DNA of 64,000 bases from Firmicutes bacterium HGW-Firmicutes-2 (GTDB lineage Bacteria; Bacillota; Clostridia; Lachnospirales; Vallitaleaceae), in the NCBI GenBank assembly GCA_002841495.1, contig PGZV01000005.1, positions 62,001-126,000 on the forward strand, in the 5' to 3' direction. The first letter of the stretch is position 1, and the number at the start of each line of letters is the position of its first letter. The notes under the pieces were generated by a model, which saw nothing but the letters and a program-made list of their open reading frames with translations, made no database searches and was not told where the DNA came from. A program made the position numbers and the translations under genes. Shown piece after piece: positions 7,326 through 47,904 of the stretch.

Positions 7326-7354
7326 TTGACTTTTAATTAGGACATAGGTATAGT
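7326..7354 (+). promoter_or_regulatory. Sigma-A-type promoter of the cobalamin operon
   Basis: TTGACT at 7326-7331 and TATAGT at 7349-7354 are separated by 17 bases. Transcription would begin near 7361, just before the first helix of the cobalamin riboswitch. Confidence 0.7.
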
Positions 7355-7371
7355 TAAACAAAGAATATATA

Positions 7372-7524
7372 AAATCATATAGCATGGAAGTCGGTTAAAA
7401 GCCGACACAGCCACCGCTACTGTAATGACGACTGAAACACTGGCCATATAGGCGAATCACTGATGAAAATCGGGAAGATGTGTGGAGGGTTGATGTCTAA
7501 GTCAGGATACTTGCTTTATGATTT
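7372..7524 (+). promoter_or_regulatory. Cobalamin riboswitch
   Basis: The B12-box hallmarks are visible in order: GGAAGTCGGTTAAAAGCCGAC, then CACAGCCACCGCTACTGT, and AAGTCAGGATACTTGC near the 3' end. The closing helix P1 can be drawn between AAATCATA (7372-7379) and TATGATTT (7517-7524). It sits between a good promoter and cobQ, so it should repress the salvage and uptake operon when adenosylcobalamin is plentiful. Downstream, TTCCAA at 7530-7535 can pair either locally with TGGAA (7544-7548) or with TTGGAA (7589-7594), which overlaps the cobQ ribosome binding site. No U-rich terminator is evident, suggesting translational control. Confidence 0.9.
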
Positions 7525-7602
7525 GTTGATTCCAAATTTCGTGTGGAAATAATGGGACTTTTATTTTACCTTTCTTTAAAAGTGCTCATTGGAAGGAGTA
7601 AA

Positions 7603-35376: not shown

Positions 35377-38300
35377 ATGAAGCTTACAAAGGATTTGTCT
35401 TATATTTTATTATTTGGTTGTGTTTTGTTAGTTGCAATCGTATTGTTCAACCATGCTAGCTTAAACCTCTGTATAGGCGAGGCTACAACATTGCAAATAC
35501 CCTTAGCAGAGGTTGAGTCTGATTTTGGTAACGGCATACACCGTGCTAAGACGCTTAATGATCCGGAATATATTGAATATAAGATTCAAATAACTAAAGA
35601 AGCGTTAACTAGAGTGAGCGATCAACATCTTTTCTTAAGTGTTGGTTATTTTACAGTACAAGCATTTGAAGTTTATATTAATGATACACACATTGCATCT
35701 ATTGGAGACTATATGTTTGGACGAAGTGATGTGGGTAAGATTATCCACATCGTTCCGCTACATCAACATCTACTACAGGATGATAATACCATTACGTTTA
35801 AGACAAGAAGTATTCTTAATACAGGCATAAAAGGTAATGTTAGTATTCTAAACGAAATCTCAGCCATTGATCATAGGCAATGGCTGAGATTTGAGTATTG
35901 GTTAATATCATTTGTGGTTTTAGGGACGCTTCTACTTTCTATCGTATTAATTTTCCTTTCTTTTTCACTAATACGTGTCAGAGACTCGGCTTTTGGTTCA
36001 TCTTATATTTGGCTAAGTATTGCGGTCATATTTTTGTCGATTCATTCTATGGAACTCATTGGGGATAATTATTACTCATTGGATTATTCAATGGCTTACA
36101 GAATGAGTAGAATCTATGTTTTTCTTGCAGCATTTTCAATCATATGGGCAACCAAATTCTTTGAAACTAAAGCGAAGCGTTATTTCATTGCACCTATTCT
36201 AATATTGGCAATTATCTGGGTGACATTTTCAACAAACGACATTCATCTCTATAATAAGTATGCAGAGTACTTGATGCTCATGCTAATCGGAATCATCATT
36301 TTATCAATCATCCAACTTATGAATAGCCAACATACACAAAAAATGAAAAAATTTGGCGTGAATGTTGCAGCAACCATTATTCTGTCCATTGTCATTCGTC
36401 AATTGCCTAGGCTCATCAACCCTGACGTGATCTTAGAAAGAAACCTAGTGGGTATTGTACCGCTGTGCATGTTTTGGTTTTTGGTGACATACAGCATCCT
36501 TAAAGAATTAATGATTATTTATAACAATGAAAAGAAAGTTGCAAATGCCTTAAAGAATCAGCAGGAGCATGTGTATAAAAACATGGGAGAAGGCTTTTTC
36601 AAGGTAGGAGCCAGTGGGATTGTTGAAGATGTTCTGACACAAGTTTGCAACAGTATTTTTGGTAAAAACATTAAAGGGACACAGTTAACGGAATTAATTG
36701 GTATGAGAGAAGAAGAAGGCTTTGTTGCGGAACTTTTAGATGACTTGTTCAAAGGAAGTATACCTGCTGAACTTTGTTTTGAATTGTTGCCGGAGGAACT
36801 TGATATAGGCAGTCGATTTTTTCGTCTGACTTATGAAATGGAAAAAGAAAATGAAAAGATATCAGCACTGATTGTTGTCATGTCGGACATAACAGAAGCA
36901 AAACATTATGAGTTTACCCTATCTGAAGAAAGAAATAAATTAAAAATGGTGGTCAGCACCATGCTTAATAGGGATGATATAGTGGAGCTTGTAAATGAAT
37001 TTCTTGACTTTACAAAAGACATTAATGAAGGCATTTACAAATCGGAAGAGATTATAAACAAAGTACATACTTTTAAAGGGAACTTTGGTATGTATAATTT
37101 ATTGCATATCGTACCGTATTTACATACTCTGGAAGATCGACTTATTAATGGTGATACAATAGATCTTAATCTGGGCAATAAGCTTAGAAATATTATTTAT
37201 GAAGATTTGGAAATTGTAACAGATATAACAGGAAGCTCTTTCTTCGAAGATGAGCTTTATCTATCGGTTAATAAGAACAATCTTAAGAAAGTATATCAAA
37301 CGGTTCGTCGATATTTTTACGATAAGGAAGCATCTTTAATTCTAAGCATTGTTGACCAGTTGTTCTACAAATCTATTGGTGATGTATTGATGTTTTATGC
37401 AAGGGAGAGTGCTAAAACAGCTAGTATTAAAGACAAAATAGTAAATGTAGCGATTTTATCAGGCGATGAAGTTTTTGTTGATGTCAATTATTATAGGGAT
37501 ATATTTAGGTCTTTGGTCCATGTCTTTAATAATTGTATTGAACATGGTATAGAAAATGAAGAAGAACGGCTGATGGCAGGTAAAACACCTTTTGGCGAAA
37601 TTAGTTGTAATATTGATGACGTAGGTAATTTTTTTGAAATCAGAATATCCGATGATGGAAGAGGCATTGATTTAGGTGAAGTTTATTATAAAGCAATCAG
37701 TAAAGAAATTGTCACCGAAGAAATGGCTGAAAAAATGAGTGAAGAAGAAATGATGAACCTCATATTTGAGCCAAATTTTAGTACGAAAAGTTATGCAGAA
37801 ACCTTGAGTGGCAGAGGTGTTGGTATGGCAGCGGTAAAAGCAGAAGTTGAAAAAATAGGAGGTAAGATTAGAGTCAGCTCTGTTATGGATTTTGGAACTA
37901 CAGTAAAAATACTATTACCTAAGAACCAAGCTAAATTCATCAAGTTTTTCTCATTACCGATTGTACTAGATCTTTATGTGGAATCTTGTAAAATCTACTT
38001 GAAATCCAACAGCGTATTGGATCTGCCTCTATCCGTTTCAGGTATCAACAAGGGTGTTGAGATTTTTGATGTAACAGTAATCATACCCTTTAGTGGGCCA
38101 AAATCCGGGGCGTTCTATTTCTCAGCGAACAAATCTTTGATTCAAGGCCTAGCGAAAGCAATCATGTCATTTGATACACTTGACGACCTAACAGAAGATC
38201 TATATGAAGAGATCAAAGATGAAGTTATGAAAGAAACATGTAATATTATTGCCGGCAATGCAATTTCTCTTTTTGATGTTGATAATAAGATAGCTGATAT

Positions 38301-38454
38301 CGGAACACCTAGTATTATTGATCCGAATCATGAAATCTTTGACTTTAATATGTTGACCTGGAGTCTTGAACATGAGGATTCAAACTTTTGTCTTGGCATT
38401 GTTATTGACTATGAGGGCGAAGTCTTAGATATGGAAGGGCTACTAGATTATTAA
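35377..38454 (+). CDS. Hybrid sensor: 7TMR-DISM, PAS, HPt, CheA-type ATPase and CheX-like phosphatase domains
   Basis: A 1025-residue signalling protein. After an N-terminal helix comes an extracytoplasmic jelly-roll domain (residues about 40-165) and about seven membrane helices (170-390), together the 7TMR-DISM sensor plan. A PAS-like domain (400-520) is followed by an HPt segment with the phosphorylatable histidine in KVHTFKGNFGM (H564). Next is a CheA-like ATPase with its N box in HVFNNCIEHGIE (N719), SDDGRGI, and LSGRGVGMAAVKAEV. The C-terminus (from about residue 855) resembles CheX, keeping the E-x-x-N pair in MKETCNIIAGNAI (E953, N956). Kinase and phosphatase functions therefore seem fused. 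It is co-transcribed with the defective CheY-like gene. Confidence 0.82.
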   Translation: MKLTKDLSYILLFGCVLLVAIVLFNHASLNLCIGEATTLQIPLAEVESDFGNGIHRAKTLNDPEYIEYKIQITKEALTRVSDQHLFLSVGYFTVQAFEVYINDTHIASIGDYMFGRSDVGKIIHIVPLHQHLLQDDNTITFKTRSILNTGIKGNVSILNEISAIDHRQWLRFEYWLISFVVLGTLLLSIVLIFLSFSLIRVRDSAFGSSYIWLSIAVIFLSIHSMELIGDNYYSLDYSMAYRMSRIYVFLAAFSIIWATKFFETKAKRYFIAPILILAIIWVTFSTNDIHLYNKYAEYLMLMLIGIIILSIIQLMNSQHTQKMKKFGVNVAATIILSIVIRQLPRLINPDVILERNLVGIVPLCMFWFLVTYSILKELMIIYNNEKKVANALKNQQEHVYKNMGEGFFKVGASGIVEDVLTQVCNSIFGKNIKGTQLTELIGMREEEGFVAELLDDLFKGSIPAELCFELLPEELDIGSRFFRLTYEMEKENEKISALIVVMSDITEAKHYEFTLSEERNKLKMVVSTMLNRDDIVELVNEFLDFTKDINEGIYKSEEIINKVHTFKGNFGMYNLLHIVPYLHTLEDRLINGDTIDLNLGNKLRNIIYEDLEIVTDITGSSFFEDELYLSVNKNNLKKVYQTVRRYFYDKEASLILSIVDQLFYKSIGDVLMFYARESAKTASIKDKIVNVAILSGDEVFVDVNYYRDIFRSLVHVFNNCIEHGIENEEERLMAGKTPFGEISCNIDDVGNFFEIRISDDGRGIDLGEVYYKAISKEIVTEEMAEKMSEEEMMNLIFEPNFSTKSYAETLSGRGVGMAAVKAEVEKIGGKIRVSSVMDFGTTVKILLPKNQAKFIKFFSLPIVLDLYVESCKIYLKSNSVLDLPLSVSGINKGVEIFDVTVIIPFSGPKSGAFYFSANKSLIQGLAKAIMSFDTLDDLTEDLYEEIKDEVMKETCNIIAGNAISLFDVDNKIADIGTPSIIDPNHEIFDFNMLTWSLEHEDSNFCLGIVIDYEGEVLDMEGLLDY

Positions 38455-43505: not shown

Positions 43506-43534
43506 TTGATTATCAGTGAACATTAATTTATAAT
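43506..43534 (+). promoter_or_regulatory. glnA promoter
   Basis: TTGATT (43506-43511), 17-bp spacer, TATAAT (43529-43534). Transcription would start at about 43541, at the foot of the hexaloop hairpin. A second possible -35 (TTGACC, 43487-43492) lies upstream. Confidence 0.65.
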
Positions 43535-43540
43535 GAATAT

Positions 43541-43588
43541 GAAACAAAGGCGTTTCTATAGTGGCAAACACAATAGATGCGCCTTTTT
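43541..43588 (+). promoter_or_regulatory. glnA leader: ANTAR-type hexaloop hairpin overlapping an intrinsic terminator
   Basis: GAAAC (43541-43545) and GTTTC (43552-43556) form a stem with the six-base loop AAAGGC, which has A at position 1 and G at position 4 as required for ANTAR binding. The loop and 3' side are also the 5' arm of a terminator: 43546-43559 pairs with 43573-43586 (13 pairs, one T-T mismatch), with a T5 run at 43584-43588. The two folds exclude each other. A second upstream hexaloop hairpin (P1) was not found. Confidence 0.65.
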
Positions 43589-43622
43589 CCAATCAAATTA
43601 TAAATCTAGGAGGCGGTATCTG

Positions 43623-44951
43623 GTGGAAAGTAAGAAATATACTAAAGCAGACATTCATAGAATAGTAGCTGAAGAAGATATAAAGTTTATTCGTTTGCAG
43701 TTTGTAGATATTTTAGGCTCATTAAAAAATGTTGCGATTACAGTAGACCAACTTGACAAAGCTTTAAATGGAGAAATTATGTTTGACGGATCATCCATAT
43801 CCGGATTTGTTAGGATGGAAGAATCAGATATGTATTTGATTCCTGATTTGGATACATTTGTAAGCTTTCCTTGGAGAACCCATCAAAGCAAAGTAGCTAG
43901 ATTAATCTGTGATATTTATACAACAACTGGAGAACCTTATGGGGATGATCCAAGAGGTGTACTCAAGCATGTCATTGCAGAAGCAGAATCCATGGGCTAT
44001 GCATTTGATTTGAGGCCGGAATTTGAATTCTTTTTGTTTCATACAGATGAGAATGGTGATCCTACGACCATTACCCACGATAAGGCAGGCTACTTCGATC
44101 TTGGTCCTATGGATTTGGGAGAAAATGTTCGTAGAGATATGGTCTTGACTTTAGAGGAAATGGGTTTTAAAATTCGAGCAAGCCATCATGAAGATGCACC
44201 TGGACAACATGAAATTGACTTTGAGTCGGCAGATGCTATCACGATGGCAGATCAAATCGTCACCTTTAAGTTGGTGGTCAAAGTTGTTGCACAAAAGCAC
44301 GGTTTACACGCCACCTTCATGCCAAAACCTTTAAGTCACACGAATGGATCAGGTATGCACATAAACATGAAGCTCAAGGATCAACAAGGGAAAAATGTCT
44401 TTTATGATGAAGGTAATGCATTAAAGCTTTCTAAAACAGCTTACAATTTTCTGGGTGGTTTACTTACCCATGCAAAAGCCATAACAGCCATTACTAATCC
44501 TACAGTTAATTCTTACAAGCGCTTGGTGCCGGGCTTTGAAGCACCGGTACATATAGGATGGTCGACCTCAAATCTAAGTCCCTTAGTTAGAATTCCTACT
44601 GTAAGAGGCGAGGAAGCTCTATTGGAGTTGAGAAGCCCGGATCCGTCATGCAACCCATATCTAGGGTTAGCAGTCATACTAAAAGCAGGACTTGATGGTA
44701 TAAAAAATGAAATTATGCCACCTGAAATGATGAATTCAGATCAGCTTAGAGCTATATCCAATATATTGTCTGAAGACACTCTACCAAGTGATTTAAAAGA
44801 AGCGATTGTTGAATTGTCAAAGAATCAAGTCATTAAAGAGGCCCTTGGTACTGTTTATGATAGTTATATTAAGGCCAAAGGTTTTGAATGGGATGCTTAT
44901 CAAAAACAAGTACATGCTTGGGAAGTCGATACTTATACATCAAGATATTAG
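43623..44951 (+). CDS. glnA: Glutamine synthetase, type I
   Basis: It makes glutamine from glutamate, ammonia and ATP; the type I enzyme is a dodecamer. The start is GTG 43623, nine bases after CTAGGAGGCG; the ATG at 43533 lies inside the promoter and leader. The 442-residue length matches Bacillus-type GlnA. Visible are the beta-grasp domain with [31 protein letters not shown], and the catalytic [12 protein letters not shown] and [18 protein letters not shown] blocks. It is the first gene of a nitrogen module with the ANTAR regulator and glnN, and its leader carries a candidate antitermination site. Confidence 0.95.
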
Positions 44952-45011
44952 GGTAAGACGAGAAAGATGGCTAATAACTGTATATGGCACAGGCAATAGA
45001 GGATGAATGTA

Positions 45012-45581
45012 ATGAGTACTCGGGTGATAATTGGATCATCAAATGAAAAAATCATAAAACAACTGAGTCTGTTCTTAATCGAAAATGGTTTGAGTGTCAT
45101 TGGTGAAGCAACAAGTGGACATGACTTATTGAGAAAAGTACATACAGTTTATCCGGATCTAGCCATAGTGGACTACAAATTAAAGGGTATGAATGGTCAT
45201 GAACTATCGGAGATTATTATTGGTGAAAGACTATGTCCGGTCATCGCTTTAATTAGTCATGGAGAAATTGAGCATTTTATCAACTTAAGCCAGGAACCAA
45301 CCTTTGTACCACTCATCAAACCTTGTAGTAGACAAATGTTGATAGGAACTGTTGACTTATTGGTCAAGACTTCAAAAAGTATTGAGTTGCTTGAAAAACA
45401 GTTGGATCATTTAAAGACAAAAACAAATATGGATGCTGTTATAGAAAAAGCCAAGCAATTATTGATTGAAAATATGAATCTGACTGAAGAAGAGGCCCAT
45501 AGGCGTATTCAAAAACAAAGTATGGATAAGGGCATATCAAAAATAAAAATTGCAGAAGCCATTATTCTTATGTATGATTAA
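45012..45581 (+). CDS. ANTAR-domain RNA-binding antitermination regulator with atypical receiver
   Basis: A 189-residue response-regulator-like protein. Its N-terminal receiver keeps the aspartate in IVDYKLKGMNG and the lysine in PLIKPC. However, the acidic pair that normally binds magnesium is replaced (VIIGSSNEK), so phosphorylation may be altered. A coiled linker (LLEKQLDHLKTKTNMDAVI) leads into the C-terminal ANTAR three-helix domain (residues about 130-189: KAKQLLIENMNLTEEEAHRRI, then KISKIKIAEAII-like). ANTAR proteins bind paired hexaloop hairpins in nascent RNA to block terminators. It lies between glnA and glnN, whose leaders carry matching hairpins. ATG 45012 with GAGG nine bases upstream is preferred over ATG 45003. 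Confidence 0.9.
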   Translation: MSTRVIIGSSNEKIIKQLSLFLIENGLSVIGEATSGHDLLRKVHTVYPDLAIVDYKLKGMNGHELSEIIIGERLCPVIALISHGEIEHFINLSQEPTFVPLIKPCSRQMLIGTVDLLVKTSKSIELLEKQLDHLKTKTNMDAVIEKAKQLLIENMNLTEEEAHRRIQKQSMDKGISKIKIAEAIILMYD

Positions 45582-45624
45582 AATGTCAGAATATTCCGAA
45601 TTATAATTTATAACGTTTTTAATC

Positions 45625-45653
45625 TTGCATTTAGTAAAGTCGTATGATATAGT
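45625..45653 (+). promoter_or_regulatory. glnN promoter
   Basis: TTGCAT (45625-45630), 17-bp spacer, TATAGT (45648-45653). A TATAAT overlaps at 45653-45658. Confidence 0.6.
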
Positions 45654-45703
45654 ATAATCATAAATGATTTATGATTAAGTTTTCACAATACAGGTTTTTC
45701 TTA

Positions 45704-45744
45704 AGGGCAAAGGCGTTCTCAAGTTTATTGAGTACGCTTTTTTT
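45704..45744 (+). promoter_or_regulatory. glnN leader: ANTAR-type hexaloop hairpin overlapping an intrinsic terminator
   Basis: AGGGC (45704-45708) and GTTCT (45715-45719) form a stem with two G-T pairs around the loop AAAGGC, identical to the glnA hexaloop. The loop and 3' side are reused as the 5' arm of a terminator (45709-45722 with 45728-45741, T-run 45738-45744) that also has a T-T mismatch at the matching place. An 8-bp ATCATAAA/TTTATGAT hairpin with an odd TGA loop lies upstream, but no second hexaloop hairpin was found. Confidence 0.65.
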
Positions 45745-45816: not shown

Positions 45817-47904
45817 ATGGAAAACGTAACGCAATTATTTGGAATGAATGTATTTAGTGAGTCAGTTATGAAAGAAAGATTGCCAAAGGATACTTTTAAA
45901 GCATTGAAAAAAACCATGATTCTTGGTCATGAATTAGCTCCTGAAGTGGCGGAGGTAGTCGCTAATGCAATGAAAGACTGGGCAGTTGAAAAAGGTGCAA
46001 CCCATTATACACACTGGTTTCAACCAATGACTGGAAAAACTGCAGAAAAACATGATTCATTTATCGAGCCAACAGGGGACGGTAAGGTAATTATGGAGTT
46101 TAGTGGAAAACAATTGATTCAAGGTGAGCCGGATGCTTCATCATTTCCTAATGGTGGATTAAGAGCTACATTTGAAGCCAGAGGGTATACTGCATGGGAT
46201 GCAACATCACCTGCATTTATTAAAGACGATACATTATGTATACCAACTGCTTTCTGTTCTTATACTGGAGAAGCTCTGGATAAGAAAACACCACTGCTTA
46301 GGTCCATGCAAGCCGTATCAGAGCAAGCGGTAAGGATTCTTAGACTATTTGGTGACACTGAAACCAAAAAAGTAACATCAACTGTTGGTCCTGAACAAGA
46401 GTATTTCTTAGTTGATAAAAAGTTATACCAACTTAGAAAAGACCTGATTTTTTCTGGAAGAACTTTATTTGGCGCAATGCCACCTAAAGGACAGGAACTG
46501 GATGACCATTATTTTGGTAGCATAAAAGAACGGGTATCTGAGTTCATGAAGGAGTTTGATTTAGAGTTATGGAAACTTGGCATTTCTTCTAAAACAAAAC
46601 ATAATGAAGTGGCACCTGCTCAACATGAAATGGCGCCAATTTATTCAACGACCAATATTGCAACAGACCATAATCAGTTGGTTATGGATACGCTTATTAA
46701 AGTAGCTAACAGGCATGACTTGGCTTGTTTACTACATGAAAAACCATTTGCAGGTGTAAATGGATCAGGAAAGCATAACAACTGGTCAATCAGCACTGAA
46801 AAAGCCAACTTACTTGAACCAGGCGATACACCTCATGAGAATGCCCAATTCTTAACTTTCCTTGTTGCAACCATTGCAGCCGTTGATAAATATGCACCAC
46901 TACTAAGATTATCAGCAGCATCACCAGGTAATGATCATAGATTGGGAGCAAATGAAGCACCACCAGCGGTTATCTCTATCTTCCTTGGTGAGCAACTAAA
47001 TGCTATTATCGAACAGATTAAAGAAGGTGCTTTAACTTCTTCTACAAAAGCCAGTGCGATGGATCTTGGCGTTACAACTTTACCAAAATTTGCCAAGGAC
47101 GTAACAGATAGAAACAGAACATCACCATTTGCTTTCACCGGTAATAAATTCGAATTTAGAATGGTAGGATCTTCTGCATCTGTATCTGGTCCAAACATAG
47201 TTCTCAATACAATTGTTGCTGAAGTATTAAAAGAAATTGCTGACGAGTTGGAAATTGCAGAAGATTTCAATGCTACCTTAAAGACAATTATTGAGCGATT
47301 AATAAAAGCCCATAGTAGAATTATATTTAATGGTGACGGATACTCAGAAGATTGGTTAGAAGAAGCAGAACGACGTGAGCTACCTAATATAAAAACAGCG
47401 GTAGAGGCCATTAAGGTATTTGATGAACCGGAATACGTAGATCTTTTCTTAAGACATGGTGTATTTTTCAAAGGCGAAATAGCCGCGCGTCAGGAAATCA
47501 TGTTTGAAGAGTATATTAAAACCATCAATATTGAAGCCCTTACAATGGTTGAGATGGCTAAAAAGGAAATCATGCCTTCAGTTATTGAGTTTGCAACCAG
47601 TTTAGCAGACTCCATCAATGCTATAAAAGCCGCTGTTCCAAGTGCGTTGGTAAGTGTTCAAGAAAACCTCTTAATTAAAATATCCGAACTTTTAGTTGAA
47701 GCACAAGAAAAGTTAGTGGCACTTGAGGAAGAAGTAGCAAAAACTCATATGATTGAAGATATTGAGGAAGAAGCTTTTGCTTTTAAATTCAATGTTTTTG
47801 AGAAAATGGTGGACCTTAGAAAGCCATGTGATGAACTAGAAGTGATGGTTGCAGAAGACTACTGGCCATACCCAACATATAGTGATTTACTATTTAGAGT
47901 CTAA
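45817..47904 (+). CDS. glnN: Glutamine synthetase, type III
   Basis: A 695-residue glutamine synthetase of the GlnN (type III) family, found in Bacteroides, cyanobacteria and clostridia. AAAGGAGG precedes the ATG. Family marks are the N-terminal [58 protein letters not shown], the metal- and ATP-site blocks [22 protein letters not shown] and [14 protein letters not shown], and a long helical C-terminus. It complements glnA and is probably switched by the same ANTAR protein through its leader. A terminator follows. Confidence 0.95.

Follow-up and report, generated by a model that had tools for sequence, protein, structure and literature searches.

How might two glutamine synthetase genes of different types be brought under one switch? 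The question is raised by a locus in a 64,000 nucleotide (nt) stretch of DNA from Firmicutes bacterium HGW-Firmicutes-2 (contig PGZV01000005.1, positions 62,001 to 126,000), hereafter the window, which belongs to a genome of 3.5 Mb. On the + strand the gene order is dapF, dapL, then glnA (type I glutamine synthetase), a gene for a regulator of the ANTAR family, and glnN (type III glutamine synthetase). From sequence, predicted structures, conservation, promoter spacing, co-occurrence and residue pattern, we consider it quite probable that the neighbouring ANTAR protein switches both glutamine synthetase genes through a leader hairpin, that glnA, and probably glnN of this genus, is controlled by a single hexaloop, and that the regulator carries a pseudo-receiver. 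Control by the neighbouring ANTAR protein is well supported, because of the synteny, the conservation of the hairpin with glnN, and its absence where the ANTAR gene is absent.

Leader hairpins and terminators

Sequence and folding of the two leaders confirmed the hairpins reported by a first-pass annotation of the locus, at the same positions (Table 1). Each leader contains an AAAGGC hexaloop closed by a C:G pair, and the loop and 3' arm of the hairpin double as the 5' arm of an intrinsic terminator. A U-U mismatch interrupts both terminators at corresponding positions. Both leaders thus have the features of the dual-hexaloop RNA motif that concern its second hairpin, P2 (P1 being the upstream one): a hexaloop with A at position 1 and G at position 4 (A1/G4), a C:G closing pair, and overlap of P2 with the terminator. 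For both terminators, none of 200 shuffled sequences folded as well (glnN leader, −14.4 kcal/mol, z −4.57; glnA leader, Table 1). The hexaloop hairpins alone were weak, at −3.7 kcal/mol for glnA (z −2.31, equalled by 9/200 shuffles) and −4.5 kcal/mol for glnN (z −1.28, equalled by 27/200). Therefore, the case for the small hairpins rests on conservation and comparison.

The pattern CRAWGGCGN{14,44}CGYYTTTT, which joins the loop, a gap and the U-tract, matched the genome twice, at exactly these two leaders, and its backward control not at all. Three congeners (G115, G036 and G196) had the same two sites and one further match each (control 0, 1 and 0, respectively). Chance matches of this pattern do occur elsewhere: there were five in G022 (control 8) and three in G058 (control 1), both devoid of the ANTAR gene. 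No Rfam family matched near the leaders at the gathering threshold; four matches at E up to 5 were far under their cut-offs (RefA9, 25.1 bits versus 49) and were taken as chance.

In the mechanism that we infer, the transcription start, the operon, the binding, the antitermination, the direction of regulation and the signal are all proposed elements. By default, when ANTAR protein is lacking, each leader transcript would end at its intrinsic terminator. When nitrogen assimilation is needed, ANTAR protein made from a glnA-ANTAR operon would bind the C:G-closed AAAGGC hexaloop and withhold the loop and 3' arm from the terminator, so that polymerase would read into glnA and the ANTAR gene, and into glnN. 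The regulator would thereby raise its own level in a positive loop, since its gene follows glnA by 51 nt and no + strand terminator was found between them. The glnA transcript would open directly with its hexaloop hairpin, and a single hexaloop would do the work there and probably also in the glnN leader of the genus. Because the receiver lacks the phosphorylation set (see below), the input would probably come by contact with a partner protein rather than by phosphorylation; our guess for this partner is glutamine synthetase itself, the constant neighbour.

Table 1. Positions of the predicted elements and genes of the locus, numbered from the first nucleotide of the window.
Feature	Position	Strand	Remark
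Sigma-A type promoter of glnA, TTGATT-17-TATAAT	43506..43534	+	same layout in L033, L036, L039
Single hexaloop hairpin of the glnA leader, GAAAC-AAAGGC-GTTTC, putative ANTAR antiterminator at RNA 5' end	43541..43556, loop 43546-43551	+	
glnA leader intrinsic terminator, mutually exclusive with the hairpin	43546..43588	+	−20.8 kcal/mol, z −6.55
glnA, type I glutamine synthetase	43623..44951	+	TIGR00653, 495 bits
ANTAR regulator with pseudo-receiver (Asp57 and Lys106 kept, acidic pair gone, His166 at EutV Tyr164 position)	45003..45581	+	
Sigma-A type promoter of glnN, TTGCAT-17-TATAGT	45625..45653	+	TTGCA plus a −10 in 18 relatives too
Approximate site of the relatives' P1 hairpin, decayed here, no A1/G4 hexaloop	45655..45678	+	
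glnN P2 hexaloop hairpin AGGGC-AAAGGC-GTTCT	45704..45719, loop 45709-45714	+	outer CTT/AAG pairs extend to 45700-45723
glnN leader intrinsic terminator, mutually exclusive with P2	45709..45743	+	
glnN, type III glutamine synthetase	45817..47904	+	GSIII_N, 278 bits

Conservation of the hairpin with the ANTAR gene

Nineteen related loci (L033-L051) were fetched through the ANTAR protein. In all of them glnA lies immediately 5' of the ANTAR gene, and in 18 glnN lies 3' of it, the contig of L039 ending before. The glnN leaders of these 18 relatives were aligned with that of the window (n = 19, 16 distinct). The P2 hairpin and the overlapping terminator were present in 19/19, with 19 invariant columns across the two. 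The P2 loop was RAWGGC or RAWGGG in every leader, that is A or G at position 1 and G at position 4, and its closing pair was C:G; L051 alone has G for A1. In the alignment, 98.8% of cells were paired for the five positions of P2 and 87.5% for the 14 of the terminator; both values exceeded every slid control. When partners were shuffled (n = 500), no shuffle attained the paired cells of the terminator, nor its seven two-sided changed cells (2.4 in shuffles), and 2/500 had as good a covariation score. The number of terminator pairs changed on both sides, two, was unremarkable (213/500).

A covariance model, R1, was built from the 19 glnN leaders and run on 196 genomes of the order. The genomes with a match at E ≤ 4.7e-7 were the same 20 that encode this type of ANTAR protein (protein search, E ≤ 3.5e-43); the next match followed at 4.6e-5. 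Nineteen of the 20 had fed the model and match by construction; G190 had not, and its R1-matched glnN leader lies on a different contig. Another 31 genomes gave weak matches (E 4.6e-5 to 0.09). Although built from glnN leaders only, the model found the glnA leader of the window (43533-43591, 23.1 bits, E 0.068 in 310 kb). Over the whole genome of the window, in a coarse first pass, the glnA leader was not listed: the glnN leader was followed by five matches of 18.0-18.9 bits (E 6-9).

Genomes of the same family that lack the ANTAR gene provide a natural control. Four of them (G022, G048, G058 and G147, completeness 89-99%) have no such gene by Pfam search, and all four keep glnN; a C-RAWGGY-G loop was found within 400 nt of glnN in none. 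Together with the synteny, the hairpin-terminator overlap in 19/19 glnN leaders and the restriction of the pattern to two sites in the genome, this argues for the proposal of the first-pass annotation that one ANTAR protein would serve both glutamine synthetases. Two unrelated hairpins of a loose type lie near glnN in L191. In L189 (genome G048), dapL runs straight into glnN with 132 nt between them, and the leader hairpin is missing there along with glnA and the ANTAR gene; G069, G123 and G184, of the same genus as G048, differ from this arrangement.

A regulator with a pseudo-receiver

That the gene between glnA and glnN encodes an ANTAR protein, as first proposed, was established by domain search: its C-terminal domain matched PF03861 with 55.1 bits, versus a cut-off of 27.3, and it has a receiver domain too. 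The AlphaFold2 model (mean predicted local distance difference test score 92.4) had as its best solved fold match EutV bound to RNA (6ww6, template modelling score 0.82), then Rv1626, with AmiR high in the list.

Residues were read from one alignment of 44 ANTAR proteins, 38 encoded after a glnA-like gene and six others (EutV of this genome and of two congeners, L026, L193 and L194). Both acidic receiver residues were kept in 0/38 of the glnA-linked proteins, the phospho-Asp in 20/38 and the Lys in 35/38; the six others keep the whole set. The family-type proteins retain Asp57 and Lys106 but have the acidic pair replaced (20/20 for each), and in the glnA-linked proteins of other families the phospho-Asp is gone as well (18/18). 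The acidic pair, reported missing by the first-pass annotation, is thus missing from all 38 glnA-linked proteins compared. In EutV, Tyr164 is one of the RNA contacts and stacks on loop base G4 (PMC8934654). Its place is taken by His in 38/38 glnA-linked proteins, and by Tyr in four and Met in two of the others. EutV Lys149, Glu160 and Met172 are kept in all 38 (Lys151, Glu162 and Met174 in the window protein), Arg142 in 1/38 and Arg175 in 15/38. Judged by these residues, the regulator is a pseudo-receiver ANTAR protein and does not have the set of the phosphorylated EutV type.

One branch of the tree, with support 100/99, parts the 38 glnA-linked proteins from the six others; the program warned of long branches, and placement inside the groups is unsure. 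The genome of the window holds two ANTAR proteins side by side that differ in their receivers and in the residue at the G4 position, the second being a canonical EutV beside EutW on another contig. An ethanolamine-utilisation cluster with EutP-, EutV- and EutW-like genes was seen in L052 (G000:C32:104000-118000), also in the genome of the window; a script requiring a stem of at least 4, A1 and G4 found no dual hexaloop in the eut region of this genome. A bolder account, which we put forward tentatively and think rather doubtful, is that the glnA-linked proteins form an old, distinct branch controlling the core of nitrogen assimilation in clostridia of this kind, in which a pseudo-receiver ANTAR protein with His for the G4-stacking Tyr grips a single 5'-terminal hexaloop as it leaves the polymerase. 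The signal would come from glutamine synthetase, the enzyme reporting glutamine status to the switch of its own gene.

Control by an ANTAR protein is of a known kind (EutV, NasR, AmiR, and NitR next to clostridial glnA); the proposed 5'-terminal single-hexaloop switch with a pseudo-receiver would be new. The locus resembles EutV and the eut leaders of Enterococcus faecalis in its A1/G4 hexaloops for the ANTAR domain, in the overlap of P2 with an intrinsic terminator and in the fold match to 6ww6. However, EutV has a phosphorylated receiver, Tyr164 and two hairpins with a short linker (PMC3369931, PMC8934654), in contrast to the pseudo-receiver, the His and the single hairpin proposed here. As for clostridial NitR, known before the two-hairpin searches of 2012, the ANTAR gene adjoins glnA. 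The accessible part of the NitR account, which deals with C. acetobutylicum nitR and with the glutamine synthetase-glutamate synthase cluster of C. thermocellum and its ANTAR gene, makes no mention of a single 5'-terminal hexaloop, of glnN control or of a pseudo-receiver (PMC4676874). AmiR and NasT are also controlled via a partner, and AmiR also has a pseudo-receiver (PMC3369931; NasS-NasT, PMC3795266), but their partners are AmiC and NasS, whereas the conserved neighbour here is glutamine synthetase.

Among the leaders found in the covariance search of Ramesh et al. (2012) were those of ammonium transporter genes and of genes for glutamine, glutamate and arginine synthase (PMC3369931). The motif used there has two hairpins by definition and would not cover single-hexaloop leaders. 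No description of 5'-terminal single-hexaloop leaders was found in the literature searched, whose coverage excluded most subscription papers. The leaders described here suggest that two-hairpin searches could miss part of the clostridial nitrogen regulons. As a second hairpin does not seem to fit into them, they make the extent of single-motif use directly testable, and they raise the question of how a pseudo-receiver beside glutamine synthetase senses nitrogen.

One hairpin or two

The first-pass annotation had cautioned that the P1 hairpin expected for the dual motif was not found. Indeed, no hexaloop P1 was found upstream of P2 in the glnA or the glnN leader of the window, but it was not simply missed. 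The 55 nt preceding P2 were searched for a P1 hairpin, defined by a stem of at least 4, at least two G-C pairs, A or G as the first loop base and G as the fourth. A clear P1 was found in 8/19 glnN leaders, versus 0.10 expected from shuffles; the 11 leaders without one include the window and two congeners. L037 has a long candidate with one G-C pair, and L049 and L050 have six-base loops without G4. In L040, L043 and L044 a strong GC-rich hairpin without hexaloop stands at the place of P1, as if P1 had been replaced, not simply lost. All 19 glnN leaders allow a TTGCA −35 box to be combined with a −10 at 17-18 nt, P2 then lying 31-52 nt past the presumed start. In the glnA leader of the window, the −10 TATAAT ends 6 nt before the hairpin; this distance is likewise 6 nt in L033 and L039, and 7 nt in L036. 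The predicted start therefore falls at about the first pair of the glnA hairpin, which would leave no room for P1. P1 has decayed in the genus of the window, the glnA leader seems to have no room for it given the predicted start, and for ANTAR control here one hairpin seems to suffice in place of the usual two.

Following up weak R1 matches in other families brought the same hairpin arrangement to light there. The 14-base stem-loop pattern GRACRAWGGYGTTC alone was rejected as too loose, with 103 places in the 196 genomes versus about 140 in the backward control (hand count). Thirty of the 103 places were read as loci, with a simple test for the terminator. A terminator was present in 14, of which 13 precede glnA, glnN, glutamate synthase or amtB, L154 being the one without such a nitrogen gene; two more precede glnN or amtB but fail the terminator test, and 14 have neither. 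Among 22 glnA, glutamate synthase and amtB leaders hand-picked from these finds, the best promoter ended 5-13 nt before the hairpin in 20 and at 17 nt in L146 and L034, and its score was in the top 6 of 200 single-base shuffles for 18. A C:G-closed hexaloop with A/G1 and G4 was found in the 60 nt upstream in 0/28 leaders of these genes; a poor hairpin of a different type was seen in 3/28.

A pattern that combines a consensus promoter with the hexaloop matched 11 times, in 8 of the 291 class genomes searched; its backward control gave nothing. Seven of these loci were examined (all but L178, L180, L184 and L186): they precede glutamate synthase (two), carA, glmS (two) and glutamate dehydrogenase, the last three names coming from translated starts, and in one no gene was seen. 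Phylum-wide, a pattern matched in 10 of 398 genomes (backward control 2); L168 and L174 look like coding sequence or chance, and L177 was left out of the reading. Upstream of glnN in L175 (G579, outside the class), two hairpins with identical AAAGGC loops stand about 10 nt apart, a dual motif. In L179, L182, L187, L188, L170, L171 and L176, the hexaloop lies at a consensus promoter or before a U-tract, and the genes behind, judged by their translated starts, resemble glutamate dehydrogenase, carA, glmS (two), an amino-acid ATP-binding cassette ATPase (two) and an asparagine-synthase-like gene.

Several observations weigh against control of both genes by a single hexaloop. Only some members of the family retain the hairpin of the glnA leader, so that conservation in homologous leaders, the test set by the first-pass annotation, held for glnN and only partly for glnA: within 260 nt the hairpin was not found in L038, L040-L043 and L045-L050, L035 and L037 have a C-A closing mismatch, and a match in L044 was discarded as coding sequence. 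P2 shows no two-sided compensatory change and is not above shuffles (500/500), because its columns hardly vary. In the window protein, the EutV contacts Arg142, Tyr164, Arg168 and Arg175 are replaced by Asp, His, Gln and Gly. The 14-base pattern is not enriched over its backward control, L034 has no good promoter match, and a generic promoter scan of the glnN leader of the window favours an overlapping TTTAGT/TATAAT pair. Promoter-like sites around the locus are at chance level (11 versus 9.5 expected); single promoter calls are therefore weak, and it is the repeated spacing that carries the argument. In published systems, both hairpins were required for induction through EutV, and linkers of 3 or 14 nt performed badly compared to natural ones of 5-12 (PMC3369931). 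The affinity of NasR for a single P2 was some 12 times lower than for the pair, about 12 μM versus 1 μM (PMC7496416). The 2022 EutV-RNA structure paper, however, redefined the minimal ANTAR target as one hexaloop and noted that single motifs need further work (PMC8934654).

Classical dual-hexaloop antitermination, in which each P2 would have a cryptic P1 in front of it and both hairpins would be required, like those of eut, nas and ami leaders, would fit the eight glnN leaders with a clear P1 and the paired hairpins of L175. We nevertheless hold it to be quite unlikely, given the lack of any upstream hexaloop hairpin in both window leaders and of a C:G-closed P1 in the 28 leaders of the wider set, and the predicted start at or near the hairpin in 20/22. 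Still less credit is due to the idea that the ANTAR gene is a mere neighbour and that the hairpin serves another RNA-binding protein (CsrA, for example), simple attenuation or the stability of the RNA 5' end. The loop is rich in A and G, CsrA favours GGA in hairpin loops, and a 5'-terminal stem can stabilise RNA. Yet the P2 loop, RAWGGC or RAWGGG in 19/19 glnN leaders, contains no GGA, and CsrA was set aside on this ground; moreover, family members without the ANTAR gene also lack the hairpin, which obeys the A1/G4/C:G rule of EutV and NasR and whose targets are nitrogen genes. These points make this explanation highly improbable.

As to the signal, a kinase encoded elsewhere might phosphorylate the regulator at Asp57, in the way EutW acts on EutV, and the retention of Asp57 and Lys106 throughout the family-type proteins would agree with it. 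The replaced acidic pair, the loss of the Asp itself in the other families and the lack of a kinase as immediate neighbour make it unlikely, and contact of the pseudo-receiver with a partner protein is preferred. A large protein resembling, by eye, a membrane-bound CheA-type kinase with a histidine-kinase ATPase stretch is encoded about 6.5 kb upstream of the presumed ANTAR operon (35377-38454). Elsewhere in the window, a Cobalamin riboswitch (RF00174, 75 bits) lies on the + strand at 7330-7532.

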